Shown piece by piece: positions 1-16,524 of a stretch of DNA of 64,000 nt (position 1 is its first letter; each line of letters opens with the position of its first letter). The translations under genes and the position numbers were made by a program. Location: the NCBI RefSeq assembly GCF_003325455.1, contig NZ_CP025198.1, positions 3,224,001 to 3,288,000 on the forward strand, given 5' to 3'. A model generated the notes under the pieces. It worked only from the letters and a program-made list of their open reading frames with translations. It was not told the origin of the DNA and searched no databases. The DNA comes from Acidipropionibacterium virtanenii (GTDB lineage: Bacteria > Actinomycetota > Actinomycetes > Propionibacteriales > Propionibacteriaceae).

Positions 1-2825
1 GCCAGCAGGTCCTTGGCCAGGGGGCCGCCGAGTCTGGCCGGTACCCCGAGGACGCGGCGGGTCCAGTCGGCGTACCAGGACTGGGTGTCGGTGACCGGGT
101 CGAGCTCCATCCGGTTGCCGACGCCCCGGGAGCGCCCAGCATCCCAGGACCGGGCAGCTCCGCCGCCGACGTAGGGGAATCCGGGTGTGGCACGCCCGGC
201 GGGGAAGGCCGGCATGCCCTCTCCGCGGGGGCGTCCGCCCCACAGGTAGAAGCGACGCCCGTCGTTCTCGATGAACTTCTTGAACCAGGGGTGATCGATG
301 GCCCCCTGGGTACGCATCCGCTCCAGGACGCCCCGCACCCACCGGATCTGGACGTCCTCGGGAGTGCTGGCTGCCATCGGATCGCCGAGCCGATCCTCGT
401 CGAACTCGGCCAGCACCTTGCGGGCGATGCCGCTCAGCGCTTCCGGCGTGGCCTCGACTGTGGCGGACGCTGATCCGGTGCGTTCCAGGGTGCGGCCGAA
501 ATGGCCGGAGAGGCCGAATTCGAGGATGGCGTCGAAGCGCAGACGTCGGCTCACCGTGCGGCGCACGGCGTCCGGGATGCCCGACCAGGTGGGCGACGTC
601 CAGAAGGCCTTGTTCTCCTCGCCGGCGAGCTCTGCAGGCAGGAGCCGGTAGCGGCGGAAGCGGTCGTCTCGGGCCAGTTCCAGCACGCGGGAGGTGAGTT
701 CGGGGAGGCTGAGGGACTCGTCCCCCAGAGCTTCGCGCAGCACCGCGCGCAGGGTGATGGCGTGGGACCGGGCGGAGATGAACCCGGCGTGGTGGGCGGC
801 GTCCTGGACGGAGTCGGCGAAGACCAGCGCCTTCTTCTCGCGAGGATCCAGCTCCTGGCTGCCGAACAGGTTGGACATGGTGACCGACAGCAGGGTGGCG
901 ACGGCCGATCCGAGGAAGCGGATCCCGTCGCGCTGGCCGCAGGAGGGGCAGACGTCGTTCTGGGAGTCCTCGCCGGCGTTCTCGCCGGTGAGCATGAGCA
1001 CCGGCAGGGTGAGGCCCTCGCGGTAGTCCTGCTCGGCGAGGTCGTCATCGTCGAGGCCGGGCGGCTGGGTGGAGAAATTCCTGCCTCGGGGCCTGAACCA
1101 GACAAGCTGGCGGCCGGCGCCGGGGTCCTGGCCGTCCTGTGCTGCTTCGGCCTCGTTGCGGGCGCTGATGAGAGCCCGGATCTTGTCGCTGTGGTTGGCG
1201 TGGTTGCGCCGGATGGCGTCGTCGCGGGCCGCCAGATCGGTGCCGGTGTTGGCGAGCTGCACCGCCCACCCGGAGCGCCCGCAGTGGCGGCAGTAGACGG
1301 CGGGGAACCAGTAGTGCTCCTCATCGGTCGGGTCATCGGCGTCGGTGGTGGGGGCGCCGTCGTCGGACCAGTGGTAGCGGACGCCGGTGGTGGCCTCGCG
1401 GTCGATGCGGGAGAGTTCGCGGATCCACAGGTGGGTCTCGGTGGAGACGACGTTGCGGTTAGGCAAGGCGCGCAGATGCGCCAGAGCGGAGACAAGATCC
1501 AGCAGGAATGCGACGCGGTCCCCGTGACCCTTGCTGCCCGATTCGCCGGGGAAGAGCTCGGGATCGTCGGCCAGGGCGTCGACGTGGGTGGCGTCGCGGG
1601 TGGCCGTAATGAGTTTCTGGACGAGGGGGTGGGCGCGGGCCAGGGCAAGAAGGCCGGCATGGTCGTCGGTCTTCGGACGGGCCGGGTCACGGTCCAGATC
1701 TGTGGGCTCGTACATCCGATTGAGGACGGCGTGACAAATGGCGGCGGAATCGTCGGCATTGTCGGCTGCGCGGTGGATATCGGTGGCGCCGCTGGTGGTG
1801 ACAGGAGCCGGCGCCAGGCCCATGGCGGCCACCTCGTCGGCGGCGCCGGTGGCCCATTCGTCGACATCCTGGCGGGACTCGGTGACCACGCAGGACTGGT
1901 CGAACTGTTCGCCGAAGATGGTGCTGGCGAAATCAACCATCTGAGCGCGACCGTCGTCGGAGCCCCCTCCGAGGGTGGCGGAGGTGCCGACGGGGGTGAC
2001 GTTGCCGAGCGGCCGGGTCCAGTTCTCGGGATGCGCCGAGTTGGCGCGCAGCGTCAGGCCGAGGCGCCGCAGGAGCATTGCGACGTCGGTGCCCTGGGCT
2101 CCGTCGTAGGTGTGGAACTCATCGAGAACGAGGTACTGCAGGCTGTCGGCCGATGAGGCCCAAATAGCTTGGTCGGCCTCGCGCAGGAGGAGCTGGTCAA
2201 GCATCTTGTAGTTGGTGAGCAGAATGTCGGGCGGGTCGGAGCGGATGACGCCGCGGTCGCCGATGAGACCGTCGGCGCTGACCCTGGTCCGCGAACTGTG
2301 TTCGCCGGTGTAGATGGCCGCGGTGACGCCGCCCCAGGGGTTCTCGCCGGGAGCGCTGATGAGCCGGGCGAGGCGCGAGGCCTGGTCGGTGGCCAGGGCA
2401 TTCATGGGGTAGAGGAACAGCGCTTTGACGCCACGCTGACCCGAACGGCGAGCCCGGGCGGCATGGTCGAGAACCGGGTAGGTGAAGGCCTCGGTCTTGC
2501 CGGATCCGGTGCCGGTGGTCACCAGGGTCGGGAGCGGACGCCGGTTCGCCGAGTTCAGGCGGGCGAAGGCGCGTGCCTGGTGGATGTAGGGATTGAAGTC
2601 AGGAGGCATCCACGCCAGCCCGTCGGCGGCGCGTCTGGGCGCCGCCTGGAAGGGCAGGCTGGTGCGGATGTAAGGCCCCTTGAACAGGCCGTTGACGGGG
2701 TCGTTGAGGAATGCTTCCAGCGCACTGCGGGCATCACCGTCGGCCAGGGCGAAGGTGGTGGTGAGGTACTCCAGCAGACTGTGCTGGAGGTTCCGGGCCT
2801 CGCGCGGTGGAAGCAGTTCGCTCAT
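1..2825 (-). CDS. Giant DEAD/DEAH-box helicase of a defence operon (partial, C-terminus off window)
   Basis: About 941 residues are visible, read leftward from an ATG at 2825; the 3' end lies beyond base 1. The frame shows Walker A TGTGSGKTE near residue 107, then LFLYPMNALATDQ, LTNYKMLD and a DEFH box (in DEFHTYDGAQGTD) near residue 235. Possible zinc ligands follow as CRHCG near 513 and CPSCG near 628, with KALVFADSVQDAAHHAGF just after. These belong to very large superfamily 2 helicases of defence islands, many ending in a DUF1998 domain (DruE-like). The start overlaps the methylase stop as ATGA, so translation is coupled. By position it would match DrmA of class 1 DISARM, but the YPMNAL and Cys-rich features look more DruE-like. 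DNA translocation or unwinding is inferred. DUF1998 itself cannot be seen here. Confidence 0.85.
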   Translation of the reverse strand, partial: MSELLPPREARNLQHSLLEYLTTTFALADGDARSALEAFLNDPVNGLFKGPYIRTSLPFQAAPRRAADGLAWMPPDFNPYIHQARAFARLNSANRRPLPTLVTTGTGSGKTEAFTYPVLDHAARARRSGQRGVKALFLYPMNALATDQASRLARLISAPGENPWGGVTAAIYTGEHSSRTRVSADGLIGDRGVIRSDPPDILLTNYKMLDQLLLREADQAIWASSADSLQYLVLDEFHTYDGAQGTDVAMLLRRLGLTLRANSAHPENWTRPLGNVTPVGTSATLGGGSDDGRAQMVDFASTIFGEQFDQSCVVTESRQDVDEWATGAADEVAAMGLAPAPVTTSGATDIHRAADNADDSAAICHAVLNRMYEPTDLDRDPARPKTDDHAGLLALARAHPLVQKLITATRDATHVDALADDPELFPGESGSKGHGDRVAFLLDLVSALAHLRALPNRNVVSTETHLWIRELSRIDREATTGVRYHWSDDGAPTTDADDPTDEEHYWFPAVYCRHCGRSGWAVQLANTGTDLAARDDAIRRNHANHSDKIRALISARNEAEAAQDGQDPGAGRQLVWFRPRGRNFSTQPPGLDDDDLAEQDYREGLTLPVLMLTGENAGEDSQNDVCPSCGQRDGIRFLGSAVATLLSVTMSNLFGSQELDPREKKALVFADSVQDAAHHAGFISARSHAITLRAVLREALGDESLSLPELTSRVLELARDDRFRRYRLLPAELAGEENKAFWTSPTWSGIPDAVRRTVSRRLRFDAILEFGLSGHFGRTLERTGSASATVEATPEALSGIARKVLAEFDEDRLGDPMAASTPEDVQIRWVRGVLERMRTQGAIDHPWFKKFIENDGRRFYLWGGRPRGEGMPAFPAGRATPGFPYVGGGAARSWDAGRSRGVGNRMELDPVTDTQSWYADWTRRVLGVPARLGGPLAKDLL

Positions 2826-5800
2826 GATCGATCCATCCCCGCCAGACGTCGTTCGAACTCGCGGTAGGCCCGGGTCATGTCTTCCTCGCGATCGTAGGTC
2901 CGGAATGGCAGGTCGTAGGTGTACTCGTAGCCCGAGGCGTTGGTCGCGGTGCGATCAGACCAGGACAGGTTGTCGCCCTTCTTCTTCCACGCCTGATAGA
3001 CGGTGTTGGGGATCACCCGGCCGTTCGCGTCGTAGATGTACTTCGTTGTGCTCTTCCCGTGGTCATAGTCGTAGAGGACCCCGAACTGGGTGCGGTAGAC
3101 CGTGCAGAGTTCTTCGGCGGGGATACCCAGCATGAGGGCCACGAGGGCATCGATCTCCACGAGCGCCTGGCGCCGGTCCGCATCACGGCGCAGCGGGGTG
3201 GCCATTGACCAGTCGGGTGCCCCCTCCCCGAGTGAGGCGTGCGTGTAGTCGGTGAAGGTCCAATGGTCAGTTTGGAAGGCTGGGTCCCAGCACTCGGCCC
3301 ACAGATCTGCGTACGCGTTCGTGAGGCAGTTGAGTCGCAGGGTCCGGAGAATCAGGGACGGGATGAGGACATGGTCAAGTGGCGGGAGAGGAAGGCGCTC
3401 GAAAGCGGCAGTTCTTATCGTGCTTTTTGGAACTGCACGTATAAGAAAATCAGAAAGAATCGACGACGCTGAGCCCACGCCGATAATTGACGATGCTCCT
3501 TCATCGCATGACGCGTCAAAAATACCATCGACGTGTGCAGAGCCGGGGGGGATCACGGCTGGAAGGAGTGTTCTCTCGCCAACATTATATGCCATTGCTC
3601 GCCATGCGACTCGATAGTGATTCCGTGCCGGATCCCCATTCCAATGAGTGTACGCATGATCATATCTCGCTAGATCGCCAGCAGGCTCATAAGCGGTTAC
3701 GGGGATAGCGTCGCCAACCAATCGCTCGAGATCAACAGATGACCAGTCTCGATTGTTCTTCATTTCCTTGTTTGGAATCTGGTAAAAAGGGTTCGATATA
3801 AACAGATGAGGACCCTGAAGAATAACATCGTCCCAACCCGCTGGCACACCCCACCCCTGGATGAAGTACCCTCTCGTACGGTCGTTCTTCTCGTGCCATC
3901 CCGGCGAGAACCGCAATCCAAGCGAACCGATGCGGTCTGCGTGAGCGAGCCTCGCCAGCACATCGGCGATGCCGCGGTTCACCGTGTACACCATCCGGGA
4001 GCGCCTCGCCGACGTCTCAGGGCTCTCCAGCAGATCACGCCAGATGGTCAGCGTCTCATCCGTGACCCGTTGAATACGGGACCGATGTGGTCGAGTGTCC
4101 CAATGGCCTTGGAACTTGAACCCCGGCTCATCCCCACCACCATTGTGGCGGTATGAATTCTCCACAGTGTTCGGCATGTAAATCGCTGTTGCTTGATCAA
4201 ACGACACCGATCTTCCGGGGGTTCCATAGACATTCACGCCAAATGTCTTTTCATTCTGAATCTCAAAGAGCTTCATCTCATTGATAAACTGCCAATGACG
4301 ACGGAGTCTAACATAACACTCATTACGTAGAGTTCCCGCCTTCTCGTCAGTGAAATGGGTGTCGAGATGAATAAGGGAACTTACCCCTCGGACCGACTCG
4401 TGTGCCCACACCTGCGACATGAAGCATCGGTACAGATCTGGCTGAAGACCTTCCAATACCGGATAATTTGTGGGATCCCCGACGAATCCGGACGTTCCTC
4501 CGATGTCCCCCACTCCGTCGGCGACGCTGTCGATCATTCCTTCGTGACTCAGTGTCAGCTCACGTCTGGAGTCTCGTGCCGCTTCTGATGGCTTGTGTTC
4601 GAGCATCCACCACGGATCTCCCTCCGCCAGCAGAGCATCCAAGTCGAGGATGGGCCTTACCCACGGAGGGTTTCCGAGCTGGAGGTCGAAGCCTCCCTTC
4701 CCGAAGACGGTGGCGAAGTCGAGCTGCCAGTGGAAGAAGCCCTGCTGGGCCGCGACGCGCTCGCACTCCCCTAGCCACGGATGCTCGGCGACCACATCCG
4801 ATACATGCGGCGCGGCTCCGGCACCGGCGAGTTCGAAGTTCTCCTGATCGGCGAGGCCTTCCCACTCGTTGGCCGGGGCCAGGCTCTCCGCCCCGCGCTC
4901 GGCAGCCTTGCGTGACCTGTTGCTCTGCGTCCCGAGGATCTGCTCGGCGACGGCCAGCCACTCGTCGAACTCAGGCGGCGTCACCGATGTCGTCAGAGGC
5001 CAGAACCACAGGGCACACCAGGCATCCATCACACGGCGCAGCCGCTGGTAGGCGCCGTCGGGATCGGACAGACTCTGCTCGATCTGCTCCCTGGTCACGT
5101 AGGTCTTGGGCGCGTTCTTCGGTTCCTGCCCCCAGAGCGGGATATCCCTGCGTGTCTGCTGCTTGGCGATGGTGAGGCGACGGTAGGCCATCGTCCACAG
5201 CTCTTCGACCTGGTAGCCGAGATCAATGAGCCGGTCCACCTCCTTCTTGGTGGGCTTTGCTGTGGCGCGGCGTCGCCAGGCCTTGATGGCCTTGACGGTG
5301 TCGGGAACGAGCTTCTTGGCCTCCTTGGACGCCGCGGTCGAGCCCCAGCCAGCAGCCGGCATGAGCCAATGCGGGATCCTCCCGGCGGCCTCGGTGAGCC
5401 CGTCTCGGTCGCCGTTGACGATGGCGTCAATATCAGTGAGCGCCACATCGGTGGGCGGCATCGTCAACCAGGACTTGCTCATGATCTGGTCGCGCCGGTA
5501 CACGGCTCGTCGGGCCCCGATCAATGAATTGCCGCGACGCAGGTGCAGGCCGAACCAGGGGGCCTGCAATCCCTTGGCCATCGACGACAGCCACAGAGTG
5601 ATCTCGGCGAATTCCACGGCGGTGGCGTTGAGATCCACCCCGTAGACCTGGTGCAGGGCGATGGAGGCCTTCACCTTCTGCAGTTCCTGCGGGTACTCCT
5701 CCGGGTCAATGCGCTCGCCCAGTTCGTTCTGTCTGCGTTCCAGATACTGTTCGGCGAGCTGGTTCACGGCCTCGATCGCGAATGCGCCCGAGCCCAGTGC

Positions 5801-7624
5801 GGGCTCGCAGATGGTGAGATCAAGGATCGTGTCGGCCGGCGTCGTCAGATCATCCTGATCCAGGAGCTCTTCCAGGGCCTGACCGACGGTGAACCGGGTG
5901 AGGACCTCCGGTGTGTAGTAGGAGGCCGACTGCTGACGCTCCCGGCCCGAGAGCCGGAAGACGAATTCGCCCTTGCTGTAGCGGCGCGGGACACGCTCGC
6001 CGGTGTCGGGATCGTCGACCATGACGAAGTCCTTCTCGGCGATGCTGTCGGCCCGGTCGATCGGCACCACCCAGGAGCCCTTACTCGGGTCGCCGTCGTG
6101 GGCCACCTCATACAGCTCCTCTGTGGCGAAGAACCCCGTGTAGCTCATGAGGCCCTCGTAGACGGCACCGAGCTGGTTGATACCGAGCTCCACGTAGGAG
6201 ATGAAGCCGCGTTCGCGTCCCTTCTTCTCCTTGGTGAGCAACAGCATCGCGAGCACCGTCTGGAGTGCCTCGTTGCCCAGGCCGACGTCGTCGATGAGCG
6301 CGGTGGCCTCGCGCTTGAAGAGGTCGGCGCGCAAGCTCTGGAACTCCAGGCCCTGGAGCTCGCCGGACTCGTCGTCGCCCTGAGCCTCATCGGTCTTGGC
6401 GGCGCCGGCGTCATGCCCGTGGTCGATGAGCCCGAAGAGCGTGCCGAGGGACTGGTAGATGTGTGTGCCCTGTTTGGAGCGCTGGCTGGTGAGCTTCACC
6501 TGGAGCAGGTCGCGCAGACGATCCACCGAGTAGCCCGCCTCATACTCGGGAGCGCCCACCGGCAGAATGCCGAGCTGTGGGGAGGCCTCGGCATAGAGCA
6601 GGAAGAGGATGCGGTAGAGGAATCGCAGGGCCTGGTTGGCCAGCCGCTGGGCCTGATCGTCGGTCAACGGATCCAGGTTCATTGTGCGGTGCCGGTTCAC
6701 CACCTCGTTGGCGATGACCTCGATGCTGGTGCGCACACCCTCGCGCAGATCGGCGGAGACGCCGACGGTGTGTTTCGTGGAATCCTCGAGGGTCTCGGAC
6801 CACCAGATTGTGCCATCCTGATCTGGCGCCAGGGATTCGGCGTCAATGCAGGTGATCGCCGTATCGAGTTCGCCGGCTCGCTTGGTGTCGTTGCGGTCCA
6901 GGACGGTCTGAAGGTCGATGCCCAGATAGCGGCCCTGCTGCCATCTGGCGGCCTCGGCGACGACGAGCCAGCGCCCGGCCATCACCAACGCGAACTCGGC
7001 GGGATCACCGTCGCGAGGCGTGAAGAGCTGAGAGAGGGTCTTGGAGACCGAGGTGAGCGGGTCGCTCTCGTCATCGGGGGTCCACTCCGACAGGAGTGTC
7101 GGGGCGCCTTTGAGGAAGAGGTCCTCCAGGGTCTGGACAGGGACGGCGTCGACGATCGCCAAGGGGAATTCGGACAGGCCGTGGGCGGCGTAGCGGCGGA
7201 CCGGGCTGTGAGATGTGGCTGAGGCGGCTGACGCTGGCGATGCGGAGGCGTCGTCGTGGTGGAATTCACCGGTCTCGTAGCCGAGCGCCGTGCGGAGATT
7301 CTCGTAAAGTTCGGCAGCCGTGCCGCGCAGGTCGTCGTCGATGAGCGCTGTCTGCGCGTCGCCATTGGTTCGTGTGGCCCCGTTGGTGAGGGCCTCGCCA
7401 CTGGTGGCATCCGGGTAGAGAGCGCTCATCGCGGCAAGAAGATCGCGCCGGGTGCTGGTGATGGCGGACTTGGAGGTGGGTTCCTCGGAGGCGTCCCAGG
7501 CCTTGCGGCGTTCGAGGACTCTCTTGTGGAAGGTCTCGTTGGAGGCGTCGGAGGTGAAGTAGTGCTCGCTGATCCAGTCCTCGACCACGCGGAGGGCGTC
7601 GCTGGAGGCCATCTCACTCACCAT
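2822..7624 (-). CDS. Eco57I/PglX-like N6-adenine DNA methyltransferase (DrmMI-like), 1600 aa
   Basis: A long N-terminal region precedes the methylase core. YYTPEVLTRF lies near residue 570, the SAM-binding motif I EPALGSGAF near 608, and the catalytic motif IV NPPW near 984. These define a gamma-type N6-adenine methyltransferase of the Eco57I/PglX kind. The predicted role is marking host DNA, or serving as the methylating arm of a DISARM- or BREX-like system. The start overlaps the SNF2 gene by 11 bp and the stop overlaps the giant helicase by 4 bp. The section from about 3400 to 4500 (residues about 1040-1400, after NPPW, where a target-recognition domain is expected) is visibly richer in A and T than the rest, suggesting a swapped specificity domain. 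A fused nuclease, as in true Eco57I, is not evident to me. Confidence 0.9.
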   Translation of the reverse strand: MVSEMASSDALRVVEDWISEHYFTSDASNETFHKRVLERRKAWDASEEPTSKSAITSTRRDLLAAMSALYPDATSGEALTNGATRTNGDAQTALIDDDLRGTAAELYENLRTALGYETGEFHHDDASASPASAASATSHSPVRRYAAHGLSEFPLAIVDAVPVQTLEDLFLKGAPTLLSEWTPDDESDPLTSVSKTLSQLFTPRDGDPAEFALVMAGRWLVVAEAARWQQGRYLGIDLQTVLDRNDTKRAGELDTAITCIDAESLAPDQDGTIWWSETLEDSTKHTVGVSADLREGVRTSIEVIANEVVNRHRTMNLDPLTDDQAQRLANQALRFLYRILFLLYAEASPQLGILPVGAPEYEAGYSVDRLRDLLQVKLTSQRSKQGTHIYQSLGTLFGLIDHGHDAGAAKTDEAQGDDESGELQGLEFQSLRADLFKREATALIDDVGLGNEALQTVLAMLLLTKEKKGRERGFISYVELGINQLGAVYEGLMSYTGFFATEELYEVAHDGDPSKGSWVVPIDRADSIAEKDFVMVDDPDTGERVPRRYSKGEFVFRLSGRERQQSASYYTPEVLTRFTVGQALEELLDQDDLTTPADTILDLTICEPALGSGAFAIEAVNQLAEQYLERRQNELGERIDPEEYPQELQKVKASIALHQVYGVDLNATAVEFAEITLWLSSMAKGLQAPWFGLHLRRGNSLIGARRAVYRRDQIMSKSWLTMPPTDVALTDIDAIVNGDRDGLTEAAGRIPHWLMPAAGWGSTAASKEAKKLVPDTVKAIKAWRRRATAKPTKKEVDRLIDLGYQVEELWTMAYRRLTIAKQQTRRDIPLWGQEPKNAPKTYVTREQIEQSLSDPDGAYQRLRRVMDAWCALWFWPLTTSVTPPEFDEWLAVAEQILGTQSNRSRKAAERGAESLAPANEWEGLADQENFELAGAGAAPHVSDVVAEHPWLGECERVAAQQGFFHWQLDFATVFGKGGFDLQLGNPPWVRPILDLDALLAEGDPWWMLEHKPSEAARDSRRELTLSHEGMIDSVADGVGDIGGTSGFVGDPTNYPVLEGLQPDLYRCFMSQVWAHESVRGVSSLIHLDTHFTDEKAGTLRNECYVRLRRHWQFINEMKLFEIQNEKTFGVNVYGTPGRSVSFDQATAIYMPNTVENSYRHNGGGDEPGFKFQGHWDTRPHRSRIQRVTDETLTIWRDLLESPETSARRSRMVYTVNRGIADVLARLAHADRIGSLGLRFSPGWHEKNDRTRGYFIQGWGVPAGWDDVILQGPHLFISNPFYQIPNKEMKNNRDWSSVDLERLVGDAIPVTAYEPAGDLARYDHAYTHWNGDPARNHYRVAWRAMAYNVGERTLLPAVIPPGSAHVDGIFDASCDEGASSIIGVGSASSILSDFLIRAVPKSTIRTAAFERLPLPPLDHVLIPSLILRTLRLNCLTNAYADLWAECWDPAFQTDHWTFTDYTHASLGEGAPDWSMATPLRRDADRRQALVEIDALVALMLGIPAEELCTVYRTQFGVLYDYDHGKSTTKYIYDANGRVIPNTVYQAWKKKGDNLSWSDRTATNASGYEYTYDLPFRTYDREEDMTRAYREFERRLAGMDRS

Positions 7625-10523
7625 CCTGGTTCTGGGCTGCCGGGGTGCTCTCGGGGACCACCACGAGCAATGGGCGGACCAGCCGCTGATCAGGCACCAT
7701 CTCTGCGATGAGTGCCTTCTCCCGGTCCACAGCCACGCGACGGCGTTTCACGCTGGTGGTGCGCATGGGGAGCTGGTCGGCGGCGGCGGACCACTGGTCG
7801 ACCTGCTGACTCCAGTTCTGGACGCGCTTCGTGGTGTCCTTCGTCATGGAATCGGCCACCAGACCGAGATACTTCTCGGCCTTTACCACCGCCTCGGGGA
7901 TGAGGCTCCGGAGGCTCTCGACATCGGCGACACCGCCGGGATTGTTACGGCTCTGGCCGAAGCCGACCGCACGCAACATGTCGGCGCTGGAGTCGTGCGG
8001 CTGGGCTGTTGCGAGGGAGGCGAAGGGGTCGTCGGGGTTGTGGGGAACCGACATCCAGACCGCGCAGACCACCTGGCCGCGCTTGTTGGTCACCGTGCCG
8101 AGGGCGAGCACCGTCGGGACGTCGACGTCGCCCCTCACCGCGAAGACCTGGTTGCGGGAGAGTGCCGCCAGGCAGCGGTCCGCGGCCCAGTCGAGGACCG
8201 GGTGGAGGGGGCCCAGGTAGTGGGCCTCGGGCCAGGAGGAGCCGTTCTCGTCATTGAGGGCGGCTCGCAGCAGCTTGTTCGCCTCGGTGCTGTTGGTGGC
8301 GAGTTTGATGTCAGTGAGGACGCGACGGTCCTTGAGGTAGGAGTCGGGGAGCACTTCCAGGCGGGTTTTGAGATCGGCCGGCGGAGTGAATTCGATGAGG
8401 TGGTCCTCGGGGAACTCTTTCCAGTTGATGCCGCCGGAATTGCCCTCGCCGGGCTTCTGGGCCTGATTTTTGCCGTAGTAGTCGTCGACGGCGTCGCGGA
8501 GGAAGTCGGCGTCGGTGAGATACAGCGGATCTGTGGTCGTGGTGTTCCGGGTGGTGGGTGCCGCGGGTGCGGGGGTCTCGCCGGCGCCGATCGCGTCGAG
8601 CCAGGCCGTCAGGGAGTCCGCAGGATCGGCGTCGAGCTCCTCGGGATCCTTGACGACGTCGTCGAACTCGCGTTTGTGGGCCAGGACGTCGCGGATGGCG
8701 TTCTCCTCGGCAGTGGCCGAGTACTCGCCCATCAGGGAGGCGGCGTCACCCAGGGCCTCGTGTGCCTTCTCCTCCTTGTCGAGGAGTTTGGACAGGACAC
8801 CGACGTCACCACCCCACGTCTCGGTGCTCGGGTTGAGCAGGAGGGTGGTGATCTGCGGGCGGTGGCGCTGGCCGTAGCGGTCGATGCGGCCGTTGCGCTG
8901 CTCGATGCGGATGAGCGACCACGGGATGTCGTAGTGGATGAGCTCGTGGCACTGGAGGTGCAGGTTGACGCCCTCGGAGGCGACGTCTCCGGTGACCAGG
9001 ACGCGGATGGGGCTGTTGGACTGTTTGAAACTCTCCACGATGCTCTGCTGGTCGACGTCGGTCATGCCGCCGTGGAGGATCTGGACCTGATCGGGCTTGA
9101 GTTTGAGGTCCTTGGTGAGCTTCTCCTGAAGCCAGTGGAGGGTGGGGACGCGTTCGGAGAAGACAACCGCGCGTTCCCTTGAGGTCTTCTTGATGCCGAT
9201 CTTCTTGAGGTAGCTGACCAGGGCGTCGTACTTCGCTGAATGGTCGAAAGTGGCGACATTGAGATCGGCCAGCCGATTCAATGCCTTGACCTCGGTCGCA
9301 TTCGGCCGATTGCTCTCCAATTTGTTGTGTGGATCCAGCCGATTGGCAATGCTGTCGCGCAGGGCGGCCGGGGAGGAGAGGAAGGCCTTGGCGAGGGTCC
9401 AGGGGAACAGGCCGACGGTCTTCTGGCCTGAGTAGGGGGAGACGCCGGATTCGGGATGAAGCCAGACCTCGGCGAGCTCTGTGGCGACGGCGTCCTCCTG
9501 CGGAGAGGCTGTGATCAGCTCGTTGTTGGGGTCGAGGCGTTCGGCCCATTCGCCGCCGACGGTGGAGGCGACCTCCGGGGAGTTGCGATGGCGTCGGACG
9601 ACGAGCCTCTTGACGTCTGCCGCGTTGAGTTCGCCCGCCGGGGTGACGGCAGTGGGTTCCAGGAGCCGGATGAGCTCAGCGAAGGATTCCGGTTTGCCGT
9701 TGTGCGGGGTGGCCGAGGCGAGGATCAGGGAGTCGGTGTTCGGGGCGAGGACGGTGGCCAGCTGGTTGTTCTTGGAGGAGGAATTGGTGACGTTGTGCGA
9801 CTCGTCGATGACGACGGCGTCCCAATGGTGCTTGCGCAGATCGGTGGCGAAGCGGTCCTGCTTGAGGGTGTCGATTGAGATGATGACCCGTTTGTAGTAG
9901 GTGAACGGGTTGCGGTTGGCCGGGATCTTCTGGCGGACCCGCTGGACGCCCAGCGAGTCGAGGCGGACGAAGGGGATGTCGAATCGGCACCACATCTCGT
10001 TCTGGGTCTGCTCCAGGACGTGGCGGGGGCAGACGATGAGGATGCGTTCCCCGCGGCCGCGCCGGATGAGTTCGGAGAGGATCATGCCGATCTCGAGGGT
10101 CTTGCCGAGCCCGACGGCGTCCGCCAGGAGGATTCTGGTGCGAAGCCTGGAGGGGTCGAGAGCTTTCGCGACTGCCGACGTCTGGTACGGGAGCTCGTCT
10201 GCCAGGGCGCCGTGGGAAACCGTCAGCGTGGTGTCGGTGAGCGGGGTGGCGGTGCGCCGGATCGTGGACTCCAGCCAGAGGCGGGCCTTGCGGTAGTGGG
10301 AGGAGTCGTCGGCGATGACGGTGGCGTCGTGGGGGTCGAGAGTGCTGGCTTCGGTGTCGATGCTGGGGTAGAAGCTGGCCGTGGTGCCCTTGACCAGTTC
10401 GGACATGCCGGTGACGTGGAGAAGCTGGCCGTCCGTGGTCTGCTCCACCGAGTTGACCAGCCACTCCTCGTCTCGGACCAGGACGATTGACCCCGGTGCG
10501 ACGTTGAGGTCAGTAGCGGTCAT
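7614..10523 (-). CDS. SNF2-family helicase/ATPase (DrmD-like), 969 aa
   Basis: Superfamily 2 motifs run in order: an LLADAVGLGKT Walker A near residue 137, VVIDESHN (DESH variant of DEAH) near 241, LILASATPHNG (motif III), VLVTGDVASEGVNL, and motif VI IRIEQRNGRIDRYGQ near 544. This is the RapA/HepA-like SNF2 arrangement used by DrmD of class 1 DISARM and by other phage-defence helicases. ATP-driven double-strand DNA translocation is inferred. The ATG at 10523 is preceded by AAGGGGAG. It is the first gene of the leftward operon and overlaps the methylase by 11 bp. The length of about 970 aa and the neighbouring PglX-like methylase support a defence role rather than the RNA polymerase recycling of RapA. 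Confidence 0.88.
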   Translation of the reverse strand: MTATDLNVAPGSIVLVRDEEWLVNSVEQTTDGQLLHVTGMSELVKGTTASFYPSIDTEASTLDPHDATVIADDSSHYRKARLWLESTIRRTATPLTDTTLTVSHGALADELPYQTSAVAKALDPSRLRTRILLADAVGLGKTLEIGMILSELIRRGRGERILIVCPRHVLEQTQNEMWCRFDIPFVRLDSLGVQRVRQKIPANRNPFTYYKRVIISIDTLKQDRFATDLRKHHWDAVVIDESHNVTNSSSKNNQLATVLAPNTDSLILASATPHNGKPESFAELIRLLEPTAVTPAGELNAADVKRLVVRRHRNSPEVASTVGGEWAERLDPNNELITASPQEDAVATELAEVWLHPESGVSPYSGQKTVGLFPWTLAKAFLSSPAALRDSIANRLDPHNKLESNRPNATEVKALNRLADLNVATFDHSAKYDALVSYLKKIGIKKTSRERAVVFSERVPTLHWLQEKLTKDLKLKPDQVQILHGGMTDVDQQSIVESFKQSNSPIRVLVTGDVASEGVNLHLQCHELIHYDIPWSLIRIEQRNGRIDRYGQRHRPQITTLLLNPSTETWGGDVGVLSKLLDKEEKAHEALGDAASLMGEYSATAEENAIRDVLAHKREFDDVVKDPEELDADPADSLTAWLDAIGAGETPAPAAPTTRNTTTTDPLYLTDADFLRDAVDDYYGKNQAQKPGEGNSGGINWKEFPEDHLIEFTPPADLKTRLEVLPDSYLKDRRVLTDIKLATNSTEANKLLRAALNDENGSSWPEAHYLGPLHPVLDWAADRCLAALSRNQVFAVRGDVDVPTVLALGTVTNKRGQVVCAVWMSVPHNPDDPFASLATAQPHDSSADMLRAVGFGQSRNNPGGVADVESLRSLIPEAVVKAEKYLGLVADSMTKDTTKRVQNWSQQVDQWSAAADQLPMRTTSVKRRRVAVDREKALIAEMVPDQRLVRPLLVVVPESTPAAQNQDGE

Positions 10524-10566: not shown

Positions 10567-10735
10567 GTGGCAGACGGGCTGGGGCGCGGGGAGGCGCGCA
10601 GAATCGCGGGTGGTGCGGGCGGATGTGCGCATCCAGTCACCGTCGCCGGGCCCCTGTGGACTCCGGCCGCCAACTCCTTGACTACAGCCAGCGAACGCGC
10701 TTCCATAGTGAATGAGCCCCCGCCCGCCGGGTTGG

Positions 10736-12060
10736 GCAGGGCTCCGGAAAAGTCGGTCGTGTGTGCTGTGACTAGGGGTTGAGCCAGGTTCGGCGTGTCT
10801 GGTGGGCGGGCGAGGCCGCCATGGATTGGATGGAAGTACTCCTACAACCCGTCCAGCCATAAGGACCCCGCCCGCGATGCCATCCTCTCCCAGCGCAGTG
10901 TCTGCACGCACCCTTGACACGCCCCCACCCGATGCCCGGCTGGCCGATCACCTGGCCCGTATCCCCGACCCCCGCAAACCCCGCGGCAAGCGATACCCCT
11001 TGCCAGGACTGCTTCTGGTCGCGGTCTCAGCGGCGATGGCCGGCTGCCGGGGATTCACCGCCACCGGCGAATGGGCCGCCAGACTGACCGCCGCGGCGCT
11101 GGAGGAGTTCGGGCTGAGATCGGCCCCCGGCGAATCCACCCTGCGCAAACTCTTCGCGCGCATCGACGCCGCGATGCTGGACGCCGAGTTGTGCCTGTAC
11201 GCCTGGACCCGCACCACCACCGTCGAGGGGCGCCGGGTCATCGCGGTCGACGGCAAGACACTGCGGGGCTCCCGCTCAACCACCCAGCGGGCCCGCCATC
11301 TGGTCGCCGGCCTCGACCACGCCTCCGGCACGGTCGTGGCCCAGGAGGAGGTCCAGGCCAAGTCCAACGAGATCCCCGCCCTGCCCGCCATGATCGCCGC
11401 CCTGGGCTCTCGGGCCGCCGGGGCGGTGATCACCGCCGACGCGCTGCACACCCAGACCGCCTCCGCGACCGCGATCCTGGCCGCCGGGGCGGACTACGTG
11501 TTCACCGTCAAGTCCAACCAGCCCACCCTGTTGAGGAGACTGGCCGGCCAGCCCTGGAAGCACGTTCCCGTCGGCCACGTGAGCGTGGAGAAGCTCCACG
11601 GTCGCCGCACACGGCGGAGCTTGAAGGTGATCCAGGCCCCCCGCGATCTGGGGTTCCCCGGCGCCTCCCAGATCGCCCAGCTGCGCCGGATCTCCACCAG
11701 GGGCGGCAAGAAGACCGTCGAGGTGGTCTACCTGATCACCTCCGCAAGGCTGCCGGCCGCCTCCCCGGCCCGGATCACGACCTGGATCCGGGGTCACTGG
11801 GGCGTGGAGAACCGGCTCCATTGGGTCCGCGACGTCACGTTCGACGAGGACCGCAGCCAGATCCGTACCGGCCAGGGCCCGCACGTGATGGCCAGCCTGC
11901 GCAACCTGGCCATCAGCATCCACCGGCTGACCGGGGCCACCAACATGGCCCAAGCCACCCGTCAGGCCGCCTGGGACCCACTCGCCACTTGCAACATGCT
12001 CCTCACACTCTGAACACAACAACACCACAGGGAGGAGACGCGACTTTTCCGGGGCCCTGC
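10736..12060 (+). mobile_element. ISAs1-family insertion sequence, about 1325 bp, with target duplication
   Basis: Terminal inverted repeats at 10736-10755 and 12041-12060 match at all but one position (left GCAGGGCTCCGGAAAAGTCG, right complement GCAGGGCCCCGGAAAAGTCG). The element is flanked by direct copies of CGGGTTGG at 10728-10735 and 12061-12068; a ninth base G also matches. A duplication of 8-10 bp is usual for ISAs1. The single transposase ORF is intact, so the element may be active. It lies between the divergent defence operon and the GmrSD-like gene. Confidence 0.9.
10877..12013 (+). CDS. ISAs1-family DDE transposase, 378 aa
   Basis: The protein begins MPSSPSAVSARTLD. It has the N-terminal LARIPDPRKPRGKRYPL region of the DDE_Tnp_1-associated domain, then VIAVDGKTLRGSR (first catalytic Asp), ITADALHTQ (second) and IRGHWGVENRLHWVRDV with FDED near the C-terminus. 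These are hallmarks of ISAs1 (H-repeat) transposases, and the length is normal. The ATG at 10877 is preferred over an upstream GTG at 10802 because family similarity begins shortly after it. The reading frame is intact and fills the element. Confidence 0.95.
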   Translation: MPSSPSAVSARTLDTPPPDARLADHLARIPDPRKPRGKRYPLPGLLLVAVSAAMAGCRGFTATGEWAARLTAAALEEFGLRSAPGESTLRKLFARIDAAMLDAELCLYAWTRTTTVEGRRVIAVDGKTLRGSRSTTQRARHLVAGLDHASGTVVAQEEVQAKSNEIPALPAMIAALGSRAAGAVITADALHTQTASATAILAAGADYVFTVKSNQPTLLRRLAGQPWKHVPVGHVSVEKLHGRRTRRSLKVIQAPRDLGFPGASQIAQLRRISTRGGKKTVEVVYLITSARLPAASPARITTWIRGHWGVENRLHWVRDVTFDEDRSQIRTGQGPHVMASLRNLAISIHRLTGATNMAQATRQAAWDPLATCNMLLTL

Positions 12061-12075
12061 CGGGTTGGGGAAGTA

Positions 12076-12113: not shown

Positions 12114-12251
12114 CGCGCTGCCCGACCAGCTCGAGTCAGATGACGTCACCGGCCCTGTACGCCTGAATCCGGGTACGTGGCTCTGCGCCGTTGACTATCC
12201 CAGATCACTCACCGACAGACCATCCCTGCCGGGAGGATTCCCGTGACCCTT

Positions 12252-12286
12252 GTGAAGACGTCAGCAGGCGCCGATATGGTATCGAC
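12252..12286 (+). promoter_or_regulatory. Promoter for a leaderless mRNA of the DUF262/HNH gene
   Basis: TATGGT at 12275-12280 lies 6 nt before the ATG at 12287, the spacing expected when transcription starts at the A of the start codon. No Shine-Dalgarno is visible. A weak TTGTGA is present near 12250. Confidence 0.45.
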
Positions 12287-14194
12287 ATGCCTGAGGCCAA
12301 GACCAGCTTTGATGCCAGCCCCCGCCACCTCACGGAGTTGTTAGGTGACGCACGAAAGGGCAAACTGCAGCTCCCGGACTTCCAGCGCAGCTGGGTGTGG
12401 GACGAGGAGCGCATCCGCAGCCTCATCGCCTCGATCTCGCGGGGCTTCCCCGTCGGCGCCATCATGACGCTCAAGACCGGCGGATCGGTGGCCTTCAGGC
12501 CACGGCGCCTTGAGGGCTCACCGGAGCCGTCGGAGGACCCCTCCGAACTGCTGCTCGACGGCCAGCAGCGCCTCACCTCGCTCTACCAGGTCATGGCGCG
12601 CAAGGAGGTCGTCGAGACCATCACGCCACGGCGTCAGAAGGTCAAGAGGTGGTTCTACCTCGATATCAAGAAGTGTCTGGACCCGACCGTCGACCGTGAC
12701 GAAGCGGTCGTCAGCGTCCCTGAGAGCCGGCTCATCACCTCCAACTTCGGGCGAACCGTCGAACTGGACCTCTCGTCGCGGGAGAAGGAGTTCGAGAACT
12801 GGATGTATCCCCTCAATCAGGTCTTGGACTGGAGCAGTTGGTACGGAGAGTTCGTCCAGCACTCGATGAAGAACCTCGAGGCCTTCCCCGCCCAGAATGA
12901 GCAGATGCTGGCATTCAACGCCGGCGTGATCAAGAGTTTCGAGGATTACCTCATTCCGGTAATCGCACTGGACGCCTCCACCAGCAAAGAGGCCGTGTGC
13001 GTCGTCTTCGAGAAGGTCAATACCGGCGGCAAGCCACTGGACGCTTTCGAATTGATCACCGCCATGTACGCGGCCGATGGCCACGAGCTGCGCAAGGACT
13101 GGTTCGGCACGGAGAGCACCGACGGCAGGAAAGACAGGTTCCGGAGCGCTCTCCGGCTCCCGTCATCGCCGGAGGGCGTGCTCTCAGGTGTGGGTAGCAC
13201 CGACTTCATGCAGGCCATCTCGCTCTTCCACACCCGCGATGTGAGGAATGCGGCAGCCGACGCCGGAAAGACAGGCAAAGAACTGCCGAAAGTCTCCGCG
13301 ACACGGCAGTCACTGCTTGACCTCCCCCTTGCCGCCTACCTCCAGTACCAGGACCGCGTCGAACGTGGCTTCATGGAGGCTGCGAAGTTCCTGGTCCGAT
13401 CGGGGATCTACCGCGTCAAGGATCTCCCCTACCAGAGCCAAGTCGCCCCGCTCGCCGCGATCTTGGCGGAGCTGGGGAAGGAGGCCGGCTCCCCCGCGGC
13501 GGCCGAGAAGATCCGACAGTGGTACTGGAACGGCGTGTTCGGCGAGCTGTACGGATCATCAACCGAAACACGGATCGCGCGCGACTTTATTGAGGTGGTG
13601 GCCTGGGTCCGCGGCGGGCCCATTCCCACAACAGTGCATGAGGCGACCGTCCGCGCCGACCGCCTGGAGACAATGCGGATGCGGGTGTCCGCCGCGTACA
13701 AGGGCGTCAACGCACTGCTGACGTGCAAGCACGCACAGGACTTCCGTACGGGTCAGGAGTTCTCGCAGACGATCTTTTTCGACGACAACGTCGACATCCA
13801 CCACATCTTCCCGAAGGACTGGTGCAAGAAGCAGGGCATCCCGGCCACGGTCTACGACTCGATCATCAACAAGACGCCGATCTCTGCTCGGACGAACCGG
13901 ATCATCGGCGGTGTGGCGCCCAGCTCCTACCTGGCGAAGCTCAAGTCGGAGTTCTCTGTGGAGTGGGCTGATCCGGATGGTGTCCTTGATGAGCGCCTCC
14001 GGACCCACCTCATCGATCCCGGCCTCCTTCGTGCTGACAAGTTTGAGGACTTCATGACTGCGCGGCAGGCTTCGTTGGTCTCAATGATCGAGGAGGCGAT
14101 CGGCAAGGCGGTGATCGTTGACCAGCCGACCGAGGCTGAGGTCATCGACGAGGACCCGGAGGAGATCCAGTTCCTCGGCAGTGAAGCGGTCTGA
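12287..14194 (+). CDS. DUF262/HNH protein (GmrSD-like restriction family), 635 aa
   Basis: The N-terminus has the DUF262 signature QLPDFQRSWVWD near residue 28 and LLDGQQRLTSLYQ near residue 87, the ParB-like NTP-dependent fold of GmrS. The C-terminus carries DIHHIFPKDWC near 504-513, an HNH-type DUF1524 motif as in GmrD. Fused GmrSD proteins are type IV restriction enzymes that cut modified (for example glucosylated hydroxymethylcytosine) phage DNA; related DUF262 proteins occur in other defence systems. The ATG at 12287 is chosen over an upstream frame-open GTG because similarity begins a few residues later and a -10 box fits it. It stands alone, transcribed away from the helicase/methylase operon. 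Confidence 0.85.
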   Translation: MPEAKTSFDASPRHLTELLGDARKGKLQLPDFQRSWVWDEERIRSLIASISRGFPVGAIMTLKTGGSVAFRPRRLEGSPEPSEDPSELLLDGQQRLTSLYQVMARKEVVETITPRRQKVKRWFYLDIKKCLDPTVDRDEAVVSVPESRLITSNFGRTVELDLSSREKEFENWMYPLNQVLDWSSWYGEFVQHSMKNLEAFPAQNEQMLAFNAGVIKSFEDYLIPVIALDASTSKEAVCVVFEKVNTGGKPLDAFELITAMYAADGHELRKDWFGTESTDGRKDRFRSALRLPSSPEGVLSGVGSTDFMQAISLFHTRDVRNAAADAGKTGKELPKVSATRQSLLDLPLAAYLQYQDRVERGFMEAAKFLVRSGIYRVKDLPYQSQVAPLAAILAELGKEAGSPAAAEKIRQWYWNGVFGELYGSSTETRIARDFIEVVAWVRGGPIPTTVHEATVRADRLETMRMRVSAAYKGVNALLTCKHAQDFRTGQEFSQTIFFDDNVDIHHIFPKDWCKKQGIPATVYDSIINKTPISARTNRIIGGVAPSSYLAKLKSEFSVEWADPDGVLDERLRTHLIDPGLLRADKFEDFMTARQASLVSMIEEAIGKAVIVDQPTEAEVIDEDPEEIQFLGSEAV

Positions 14195-14356
14195 GCGACA
14201 CATCGGCGAACTCTGCTCTATCGACGGTAGCGAATTTCCAGGTGCTGACTAATAATCGAGGTCTACTGAGGAATGTTCTTCACAATCATCTCGACGAGGC
14301 CCTTAAAAAGAAGCGAAGCAGACACTATTGGACGGCCCTCACCTTAAGGAGATTGA

Positions 14357-15307
14357 ATGTCCCTGACTCAAGAATTGAAAGACAGTACGTCTCGCGCTTA
14401 CCGGTTCCTTCATGGCCACGCTCCAATCCTGGCAGATGCTGGAACTCGAGGCGCAGCCGGACGGAACGCAGCCGCAGCCTTGCACTTCGACCGCCTCAAG
14501 TCTCATGATGTCGTTGTTTCGGTACCCCCGAGTGTCACAAGCCTTACGAGTCACTCTACTCTTATCGGCACAGCTTTTGATTACCGAGCACGAATGATGC
14601 TTGACGTCCTTTACCCGAGGGATACGGTCGCATACCGTGGCCTCAGCATATTCTGTTCTAGCTGCCCGCATACAGAGGGTGGCAACAAGTTAGCAAAGGA
14701 GCTAACTAGGACCTTCCAAGAAGCAGAGTACCTCTACGCGAGCAACGACCCCGTCGGCCGTGACACCGCCGCAATCATATTCGCTTGGTGTGAGAGCATG
14801 CGTCGAAACGCCATTCCAACTGTCATGGAGAGTCGATTCGGTCATCAGTTCGTCGAAGTTGTGAATTCCGGCGGCAATCTGATCGATGTCATTGACCCAG
14901 TCCAACTCTCGGACCTTCAAGCCCTTAGAATTGACGCTGAAGAGCAGATCTCTGAGTGGCGGAAGAGGATTGTATCCGGAGCGCCATACGAACCCAACCC
15001 CATATTCAGCGGTAGTGGATGCGTCGGAGGCGCGGATGCTGACTGGATCATCGATGATACTCTCATCGACTGCAAGACTACCAAGAACCTTACCAATTCA
15101 TGGATTCGGAAGGCTCTCTTTCAGTTGCTGGGATACTCACTCTTGGACTTTACCGACTATTTCGAAATTCGAAATATCGGGCTGTGGCTTCCACGCTTTC
15201 GCGCGTTCCAAGTCTGGAACATATACGACATCCTCGATATCTCTTCCAAGCGAGAACTTCAAAAGGTTCGGCGCGAATTCGAGAAGGCACTCACTTCAGA
15301 TACATAA
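14357..15307 (+). CDS. Unrecognised protein with a PD-(D/E)XK-like nuclease motif, 316 aa
   Basis: I do not recognise the family. Near residues 226-243 the frame has GADADWIIDDTLIDCKTTK, which fits the D-Xn-(D/E)XK core of restriction-endonuclease-like folds (Asp in ADADW, then the DCK triad). A helical N-terminal half precedes it, and FQLLGYSLLD follows, as in nucleases that pack a helix after the core. It starts at an ATG with a strong AAGGAG at 14346-14351. Base composition is lower in GC than neighbours, and codon choice includes many A/T-ending codons, suggesting recent transfer. It ends 17 bp from the convergent metallopeptidase gene. A nuclease role is inferred from the motif and the defence setting. 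Confidence 0.7.
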   Translation: MSLTQELKDSTSRAYRFLHGHAPILADAGTRGAAGRNAAAALHFDRLKSHDVVVSVPPSVTSLTSHSTLIGTAFDYRARMMLDVLYPRDTVAYRGLSIFCSSCPHTEGGNKLAKELTRTFQEAEYLYASNDPVGRDTAAIIFAWCESMRRNAIPTVMESRFGHQFVEVVNSGGNLIDVIDPVQLSDLQALRIDAEEQISEWRKRIVSGAPYEPNPIFSGSGCVGGADADWIIDDTLIDCKTTKNLTNSWIRKALFQLLGYSLLDFTDYFEIRNIGLWLPRFRAFQVWNIYDILDISSKRELQKVRREFEKALTSDT

Positions 15308-15324
15308 TCGCAAGTTATTCAGAA

Positions 15325-16524
15325 TCATGTACTCGCAGCGTACGCACCTCCTTCACGGTGATCGAGGGGCAGCTGCCCCTCGAGTCGGTCGGCGTATTTG
15401 TCGAAGCCCTTCACAGATCCGAGACCCATGAGGCGCATCACATCGGGGAGTGGGGTCTCGCCCCTCTTGGTGTCACTGATTAATGCCTGTGAGAGTCGTT
15501 CGCCGATCCGCAGCGGCTGGTTGCTGTAGAAGCTCCCACCCTTGGAAGCAGTCTTCTCCGCGATGAAGCCCATGAGTCGGCTGACCTCCTGCTCGTACAG
15601 CAGGTCGAAGCCTTCACGCGGCAGCAGCTTGGCAGCTCGCATCTGGAGCAGCACCACCAATGTGGAGCACTTGTAGAAGTCTGCAAGGCATTCGAGCTCC
15701 TCTGTGAGATCCGCTCTCAGATCCGCTCTTGCCACCAGATCTCTACGTGGGACGGCGACCTCGGCCGCAACCTGGTCGCACCACTTCTCAACCGGAGACC
15801 TGTCCTCGGCGATCATCGCCTCGGCGTCGCTGAGTCCTGTCTCACCTCGCCAGACGTGCGCGAACTCGTGGAGGAGAGAGAACACCTGACCGGGCTTGGT
15901 GTCCTTGGCATTCACGAACACGTACGGAGCCAGATCGCTATGGAGCGCGAACCCCCTGAACTCTTCTCGGTCAAGTGGCCTGTGGGTGTCGTTCCCCACC
16001 ATGGAAGACACCGACACCAGCCCACCAAGGCTCTCGAACGTCTGGACGAGGTACTTCCTCGCTCCGTTCGCGTCTCTGAGCGCAGATCGATCCTCCGGGC
16101 CGTAATCCAAGGCATCAGAGATCAGGGCCGCTGCCTGGTCGGCGGACATTCCTCTCGCGGATCCGACGAACTCGACAGGCTCTGCCCCGATCCGCACCAA
16201 GTAGTCCTCGAACCAAGCCTGCCGGCTCTGCGCGAGATACACAGTCTGCAGCAGTTCCTGACTCGGTTCGCGGTGTGCCTCTGGCCCCGAGCGGAAATCC
16301 GGGATCGGAAGACGCTCCTCCGGAGGTTCAGGCAGCATGAGCATCCCAAATGGGACATGGGTGAACTCCGCGAGATCCTGCGCCTGATTCACCGTCGGCC
16401 GGGCCTCGCCCACAAGCCACCGGTCCCAGTCACGGAACTTCTTCCTCATCGCCTCCGGAGCACGGCGACTGCGCTTCTGTGCCCACTCCAGGACGGGTCG
16501 TGGCACATCGACGCGCGCGGTCAT
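15325..16524 (-). CDS. ImmA/IrrE-family zinc metallopeptidase, 399 aa
   Basis: HEFAH near residues 218-222 is the zinc-binding HEXXH motif of ImmA/IrrE-type (COG2856) proteases. The N-terminal 60 residues (WAQKRSRRAP... LAEFTHVPFGMLMLPEPP) resemble the short regulatory domain seen in proteins of this class from toxin-antitoxin loci. Such proteins cleave repressors, or act as antitoxin partners of DUF4411 PIN-like toxins. Here no DUF4411 gene follows; instead the PD-(D/E)XK-like gene converges 17 bp away. The ATG at 16524 has GAGGAGGGG upstream. Cytoplasmic. The substrate is unknown; an XRE-type repressor is the usual target. Confidence 0.85.
   Translation of the reverse strand: MTARVDVPRPVLEWAQKRSRRAPEAMRKKFRDWDRWLVGEARPTVNQAQDLAEFTHVPFGMLMLPEPPEERLPIPDFRSGPEAHREPSQELLQTVYLAQSRQAWFEDYLVRIGAEPVEFVGSARGMSADQAAALISDALDYGPEDRSALRDANGARKYLVQTFESLGGLVSVSSMVGNDTHRPLDREEFRGFALHSDLAPYVFVNAKDTKPGQVFSLLHEFAHVWRGETGLSDAEAMIAEDRSPVEKWCDQVAAEVAVPRRDLVARADLRADLTEELECLADFYKCSTLVVLLQMRAAKLLPREGFDLLYEQEVSRLMGFIAEKTASKGGSFYSNQPLRIGERLSQALISDTKRGETPLPDVMRLMGLGSVKGFDKYADRLEGQLPLDHREGGAYAAST

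Follow-up and report, generated by a model that had tools for sequence, protein, structure and literature searches.

The operon at the left edge of the DNA analysed here is almost certainly an actinobacterial copy of the ARMADA type II anti-phage system. The DNA is a 64 000-nucleotide window of Acidipropionibacterium virtanenii (contig NZ_CP025198.1, genome positions 3224001–3288000; the genome is 3.43 Mb in a single contig). The system has already been published, and the window copy is an additional instance of it rather than a new hybrid, turning an apparent hybrid into a firm ARMADA type II annotation far from the Escherichia coli copies tested in print. Its relatives suggest how ARMADA systems gain extra defence genes and lead to two testable, if tentative, ideas: one is that a single junction of ARMADA operons accommodates other defences, the other that the ArmC tail and ArmD work as a unit which DISARM shares.

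ARMADA type II was described, with E. coli experiments, in a preprint by Bell et al. from 2025 (PMC12458937; statements drawn from it here reflect the part of its text available to us). In that account armA encodes a BrxHII/RapA-like helicase, armB a PglX-like methylase, armC a YprA helicase with a terminal Vsr-type nuclease, and armD, almost always present, a GajB-like UvrD helicase whose N-terminus is RelE-like. The order armA-armB-armC-armD is given as strict, and the describers call the system a 'missing link' between DISARM and Druantia (PMC12458937).

Gene content, order and classification of the operon

Three minus-strand open reading frames occupy window positions 1–10523, with consecutive overlaps of 11 and 4 bases (Table 1), as a preliminary description of this DNA had stated. 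Frames of 969–2157 codons together with fitting families rule out chance and confirm the three-gene observation. armC runs leftward past the window edge to genome position 3220352, so that its RecA2 domain, MZB/DUF1998 region, Vsr-like end and tail all lie left of the window. That description had also advised looking leftward; neither drmB nor drmC comes next there, but genes for a UvrD helicase, a GNAT/ASCH-like protein and an ASCH-like protein, each overlapping the preceding operon member. In its own genome the operon reads armA-armB-armC-armD and then two appended genes. An SNF2 helicase, a PglX-like methylase and a YprA helicase stand in the order described for ARMADA type II, and a GajB-like UvrD helicase follows armC, as it does there.

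Table 1. Location of the operon members and of features next to them
Feature	Location	Strand	Description
armA	window 7614..10523	-	SNF2/RapA-like translocase, 969 aa
armB	window 2822..7624	-	PglX/YeeA-like adenine methylase, 1600 aa
armC	window 1..2825	-	YprA-family helicase; first 941 of 2157 codons, frame open at window edge; full length 2157 aa
armD	genome 3218032-3220362		UvrD helicase, 776 aa
GNAT/PIN-like/ASCH gene	genome 3216018-3218045		675 aa
ASCH gene	genome 3215512-3216021		169 aa
Transposase element	window 10737-12059		DDE transposase (Pfam DDE_Tnp_1), near-perfect inverted ends
Direct repeats	window 10727-10736 and 12060-12069		matching, 10 bases each
Genes adjoining the operon	window 12191-16524		GmrSD_N protein, IrrE-like peptidase, protein weakly matching the PD-(D/E)xK partner of DRT reverse transcriptases

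ArmA was previously called a DrmD-like SNF2 ATPase, and DrmD is indeed its closest PADLOC family (318 bits); against the NCBIfam DrmD model it scores 349 bits, below the cut-off of 610. It has a Walker A motif (GLGKT, residues 138–142) and DESH from residue 240. The 1600-residue methylase of the preliminary description is ArmB, which matches the PADLOC type IIG methyltransferase model over its full length (1382 bits, positions 1–1529 of 1532), while its matches to DrmMI (173 bits) and PglX (26 bits) are both weaker. Its motifs are EPALG from 607, GSG from 611 and NPPW from 985; a pattern search of ArmB for PD-(D/E)xK, which carries little weight, gave nothing. BREX was considered and rejected, the top NCBIfam PglX score being 28 bits against a cut-off of 400.

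Full-length ArmC has DruE3 as its top PADLOC family (296 bits), as against 58 bits for DrmA. The giant helicase with YPMNAL, DEFH and cysteine clusters that had been reported is borne out: GSGKT lies at 107–111, DEFH starts at 235, YPMNAL is also present, and seven C..C pairs begin at 512, 626, 989, 1402, 1423, 1533 and 1687. A domain scan finds DEAD, Helicase_C and MZB, and likewise in the ArmC of E. coli and of Acidipropionibacterium thoenii.

Twenty aligned ArmC ends (the alignment excludes loci L040, L051 and L060) share 31 invariant columns, including E32, D99, H104 and D115, which we read as a Vsr-type active site. Pfam MTES_1575 (Vsr-like) matches the end of 11 of the 20 members at E values up to 1 (best 6.4e-6); the corresponding region of the window's own ArmC has no Pfam match and aligns with relatives that do. 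Against solved structures the top match of the ArmC end, at an E value of merely 0.29, is a mobile intron protein, presumably a Vsr relative. These alignments point to a Vsr-type nuclease at the end of ArmC, where ARMADA type II has one.

The first two genes invite another classification. Class 1 DISARM (drmD-drmMI-drmA-drmB-drmC) has the same SNF2 helicase and PglX-like methylase pair, and both the order of these two genes and the DrmD and DrmMI scores of ArmA and ArmB suit it. DISARM fails, however, because the three genes that follow armC are not drmB or drmC (neither is among the matches listed for them) and because the helicase, which has an MZB domain of its own, is closer to DruE than to DrmA at the scores given above; the DrmD match also falls short of its model's cut-off. 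We regard an ordinary class 1 DISARM operon as having practically no chance of being correct. The preliminary description had seen a DISARM-like order with a DruE-like third protein, which agrees with these results, and had named downstream drmB and drmC with a third protein closest to DrmA as the marks of ordinary DISARM; neither mark is found. Of its wording 'hybrid or poorly described', the second half was fair and the first is superseded by ARMADA type II.

Nor is a DruE-based Druantia variant at all probable. DruE is the PADLOC family nearest ArmC, and DruE and ArmC are placed in one lineage with a BrxA-like insert (PMC12458937), but the armA and armB partners and armD fit ARMADA, whereas Druantia type III pairs DruE with DruH. 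No DruH-like protein is among the PADLOC matches listed (the best 25 in three of the lists) for the 13 entries (12 genes) scanned in and around the operon. DruE3 terminates in PLD domains and ArmC in a Vsr-type one (PMC12458937), and the ArmC end here is Vsr-like. PADLOC models of 2023 label the operon proteins merely as DruE, DrmD and type IIG pieces.

As a yardstick for ARMADA type II we used an E. coli plasmid locus (L107), distinct from the strains in which the system was tested, E. coli NCTC 12900 and ATCC 8739 (PMC12458937). L107 has the expected motif at all eight residue numbers mutated in that study (K136, D236, G605, N971, K110, D234, K266 and D454), and the window residues aligned to them are identical in 8 of 8 cases (K141, D240, G611, N985, K110, D235, K303 and D508), ArmA K141/D240 aligning with E. 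coli ArmA K136/D236 and ArmB G611/N985 with ArmB G605/N971. Overall identity to the L107 proteins is 36, 34, 30 and 29% for ArmA, ArmB, ArmC and ArmD. The window copy shares with ARMADA type II the four genes, their order, the kinds of domains and all the tested residues, and differs in its two extra 3′-end genes and in that the RelE-like domain of ArmD was not recovered by profiles.

ArmD matches UvrD-helicase at 64 bits, GajB models at no more than 69 bits and a NERD+UvrD model at 85 bits. Its N-terminal domain is conserved in the 22 aligned of 23 ARMADA loci (L060 was left out) and is alignable to the E. coli copy. For these 22 members no RelE/ParE model was among the Pfam matches at E values up to 1, ParE_like was matched in 1 of 14 members (E 0.082), and comparison with solved-structure profiles matched no RelE structure. 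Profile–profile comparison with 10 ParE/RelE sequences (9 of 15 ParE matches plus one RelE-like frame read in L061) gave probabilities of 28.6% and 1.9%, and the predicted fold is unreliable (mean pLDDT 44.9). Since profiles, structures and fold give RelE no support, 'RelE-like' is retained merely as the assignment of the published authors.

In E. coli, protection needs all four genes; six of eight point mutations abolished it, and ArmD D454N and ArmB G605A weakened it. The defence was judged non-abortive, yet lysis persisted at the highest phage doses (PMC12458937). What is established for the window copy is its gene content, its order and its identical motif residues; it is presumably active. 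We propose that ArmB would methylate adenines at a host motif, a mark that probably serves self-recognition, and that ArmA and ArmC would act as ATP-driven DNA motors on unmarked DNA or phage replication intermediates, with the Vsr-like domain at the end of ArmC as the likely cutting activity. ArmD, with the small N-terminal domain called 'RelE-like' in print, would be a further DNA motor required for the attack, and the cell would survive, making this a direct, non-abortive defence.

The two genes appended to armD

The two genes behind armD share its strand; the first overlaps armD by 14 bases, and the second overlaps the first by 4. Their GC contents of 51.5 and 53.5% are 13–15 points lower than the 66.9% of the window.

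Like 9 of 9 homologues, the 675 aa protein carries a GNAT domain, together with the invariant acidic residues D165, E207, D268 and D287, which we take to be PIN motifs; a PIN Pfam match occurs in one of the nine homologues and is weak (E 0.074). A second region weakly resembles a GNAT structure (E 0.028), and the end is ASCH-like, with its top solved-structure match at an E value of 0.01. The 169 aa partner matches PADLOC PDC-M11B and, at 4e-15, an ASCH-type chain that is presumably the Zymomonas ASCH ribonuclease.

Full-length homologues of the 675 aa protein are present in 9 of 391 genomes of the order, its own included (G296, where the match covers only 93 residues, is excluded from the count). 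In all eight other carriers an ASCH gene adjoins and no Arm gene lies within the 20 kb examined. None of the 22 other ARMADA loci carries a match to the pair within the DNA examined, which is short past armD (~0.2–1.2 kb) in L009, L046, L048, L054 and L060.

The available part of PMC7641849 describes (PIN)-GNAT-EVE + ASCH pairs as toxin–antitoxin-like and linked to defence genes, so the pair appended to armD here belongs to an established type. It shares with them the GNAT and ASCH/PUA-like domains, the PIN-like motifs and the adjoining ASCH gene, but the order in the window protein is GNAT, PIN-like, possible second GNAT, ASCH/EVE-like. Most likely the pair is a toxin–antitoxin-like module that arrived separately and is co-transcribed with the operon. 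We think it improbable that the two genes are instead the fifth and sixth ARMADA subunits. Their overlaps with armD and with each other would suit such a role, as would the reported occurrence of (PIN)-GNAT-EVE + ASCH pairs near type I RM and SNF2-containing systems (PMC7641849); against it stand the lack of a match in the examined DNA of the 22 other ARMADA loci, the eight full-length carriers without Arm genes and the difference in GC.

Distribution of relatives and inserts between armB and armC

With ArmD as query (1e-30), 33 of 196 genomes of the order match, and in 20 of them besides the window's own ArmC lies directly before ArmD. The remaining 12 comprise a DISARM-joined case (G089), two with just ArmA and ArmD pieces around other genes (G190 and G077), four with ArmD-like genes near DISARM-like genes (G087, G084, G016 and G105) and five weaker UvrD matches (G048, G143, G135, G167 and G175), among which G143 alone was mapped. 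armC and armD are adjacent in 22 of 22 other loci with both, at BLAST-estimated gaps of -33 to +149 bases; 20 of these loci were chosen by the ArmD query and 2 by ArmC, so how frequently armD is lacking cannot be read from them. The ArmC proteins of Acidipropionibacterium jensenii and A. thoenii are 65% identical to that of the window. More widely, the first 320 residues of ArmC (1e-50) match 41 of 394 genomes of the class, and DNA near the E. coli L107 operon is found in 527 of 5426 E. coli genomes, 513 of them with at least 80% of it.

The gap between armB and armC, taken from BLAST ends, is 1.9–5.6 kb in 5 of 18 loci and at most 65 bases in 13; these are raw locus counts rather than independent lineages, from 16 order-level loci plus L008 and L009, the window excluded. 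The insert matches retron type VII genes in L044, a DRT-type reverse transcriptase with its NUDIX partner in L047, an Orf5/HEC-06-like gene, GmrSD-like by our reading, in L049, and PDC-S08 in L050; that of L046 also holds ArmC pieces, and its two scanned proteins are without a PADLOC match. In L045, LeoBC/LeoA genes on the opposite strand lie upstream of armC, and no armB is seen up to the contig end. The genes of L044, L045, L047, L049 and L050 thus match defence families, either known or candidate ones. In the class-level set of putative type II loci, picked by ArmC match, armB was found in 34 of the 39 places examined of 44 matched. There the gap is 5.1–6.5 kb in 4 of 34 (L134, L141, L148 and L152, whose inserts were read as frames) and at most 218 bases in 30; the other five places have no armB within ~9 kb, which could reflect an insert, type I order or loss. 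armA and armB are at most 140 bases apart in 14 of 15 loci and ~1.1 kb apart in G065.

In L061 and L067, genes of a quite different, restriction-like kind stand between the first 216–222 residues of ArmA and an end piece of ArmD, which looks as though the centre of an ARMADA locus had been exchanged for another system. In A. jensenii (L008:9942-11858) an OLD/AriA-like ATPase gene overlaps the armD end.

Links with DISARM and the surroundings of the operon

Some relatives join parts of ARMADA to DISARM. In a locus of the same genus (L043:8310-10625) a DrmB frame, in which the PADLOC match (237 bits) reaches residue 652 of 771, carries on into sequence that shares 45% identity with ArmC residues 2043–2154. 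Ahead of this fusion of DrmB and ArmC tail lie DrmA and a large TmtA-like helicase, which we read as sacsin-like; behind it comes a frameshifted armD in two frames, and the opposite strand carries a cytosine methylase. L062 (5913-17969) encodes, by profiles, DrmA, DrmB, DrmC, a type I-like methylase, a kinase-like protein and an ArmD-like protein; its genes overlap or abut, so that an extended DISARM run closes with the ArmD-like gene. Judged only from BLAST and frames, L063 and L064 are similar; L065 carries its ArmD-like gene on the opposite strand. On a Tsukamurella plasmid an armA-D-like run, with armC annotated as two pieces, is directly preceded by genes for a DrmA-like helicase and a DUF1998 protein, as read from annotation and BLAST.

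A possible reading of these arrangements, which we hold to be rather doubtful, is that ARMADA II may serve as a chassis: the armB–armC junction would be a recurrent insertion site at which unrelated defence cassettes settle, the 3′ end would take up toxin–antitoxin-like or OLD-type genes, as it does in the window genome and A. jensenii, and the ArmC tail with ArmD would form a portable unit borrowed by DISARM, for which the DrmB fusion of L043 with its broken armD is the example. If so, the ArmC tail would be the docking site of ArmD. The chassis and portable-tail ideas are absent from the available part of PMC12458937 and from the papers among the titles and abstract openings listed, where the junction was not searched by name.

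More defence-like genes lie near the window operon. L005:7384-8394 is a McrC gene (336 aa, Pfam McrBC) 1.1 kb beyond this operon on its left side. It matches the McrBC profile solely from position 57 onward, the 1.1 kb before it, read in three frames, holds no McrB or other long frame, and it is taken as a remnant; McrBC has been noted beside a DISARM-like cassette in the available text of PMC12458937. On the other side of the window operon, a GmrSD_N protein, an IrrE-like peptidase and a protein weakly matching the PD-(D/E)xK partner of DRT reverse transcriptases adjoin it (Table 1). Between the GmrSD gene and armA, ~210 bases before the latter, sits the transposase element, which we take to be of the ISAs1 family, flanked by its direct repeats; from its position before armA it may have parted that gene from its promoter.
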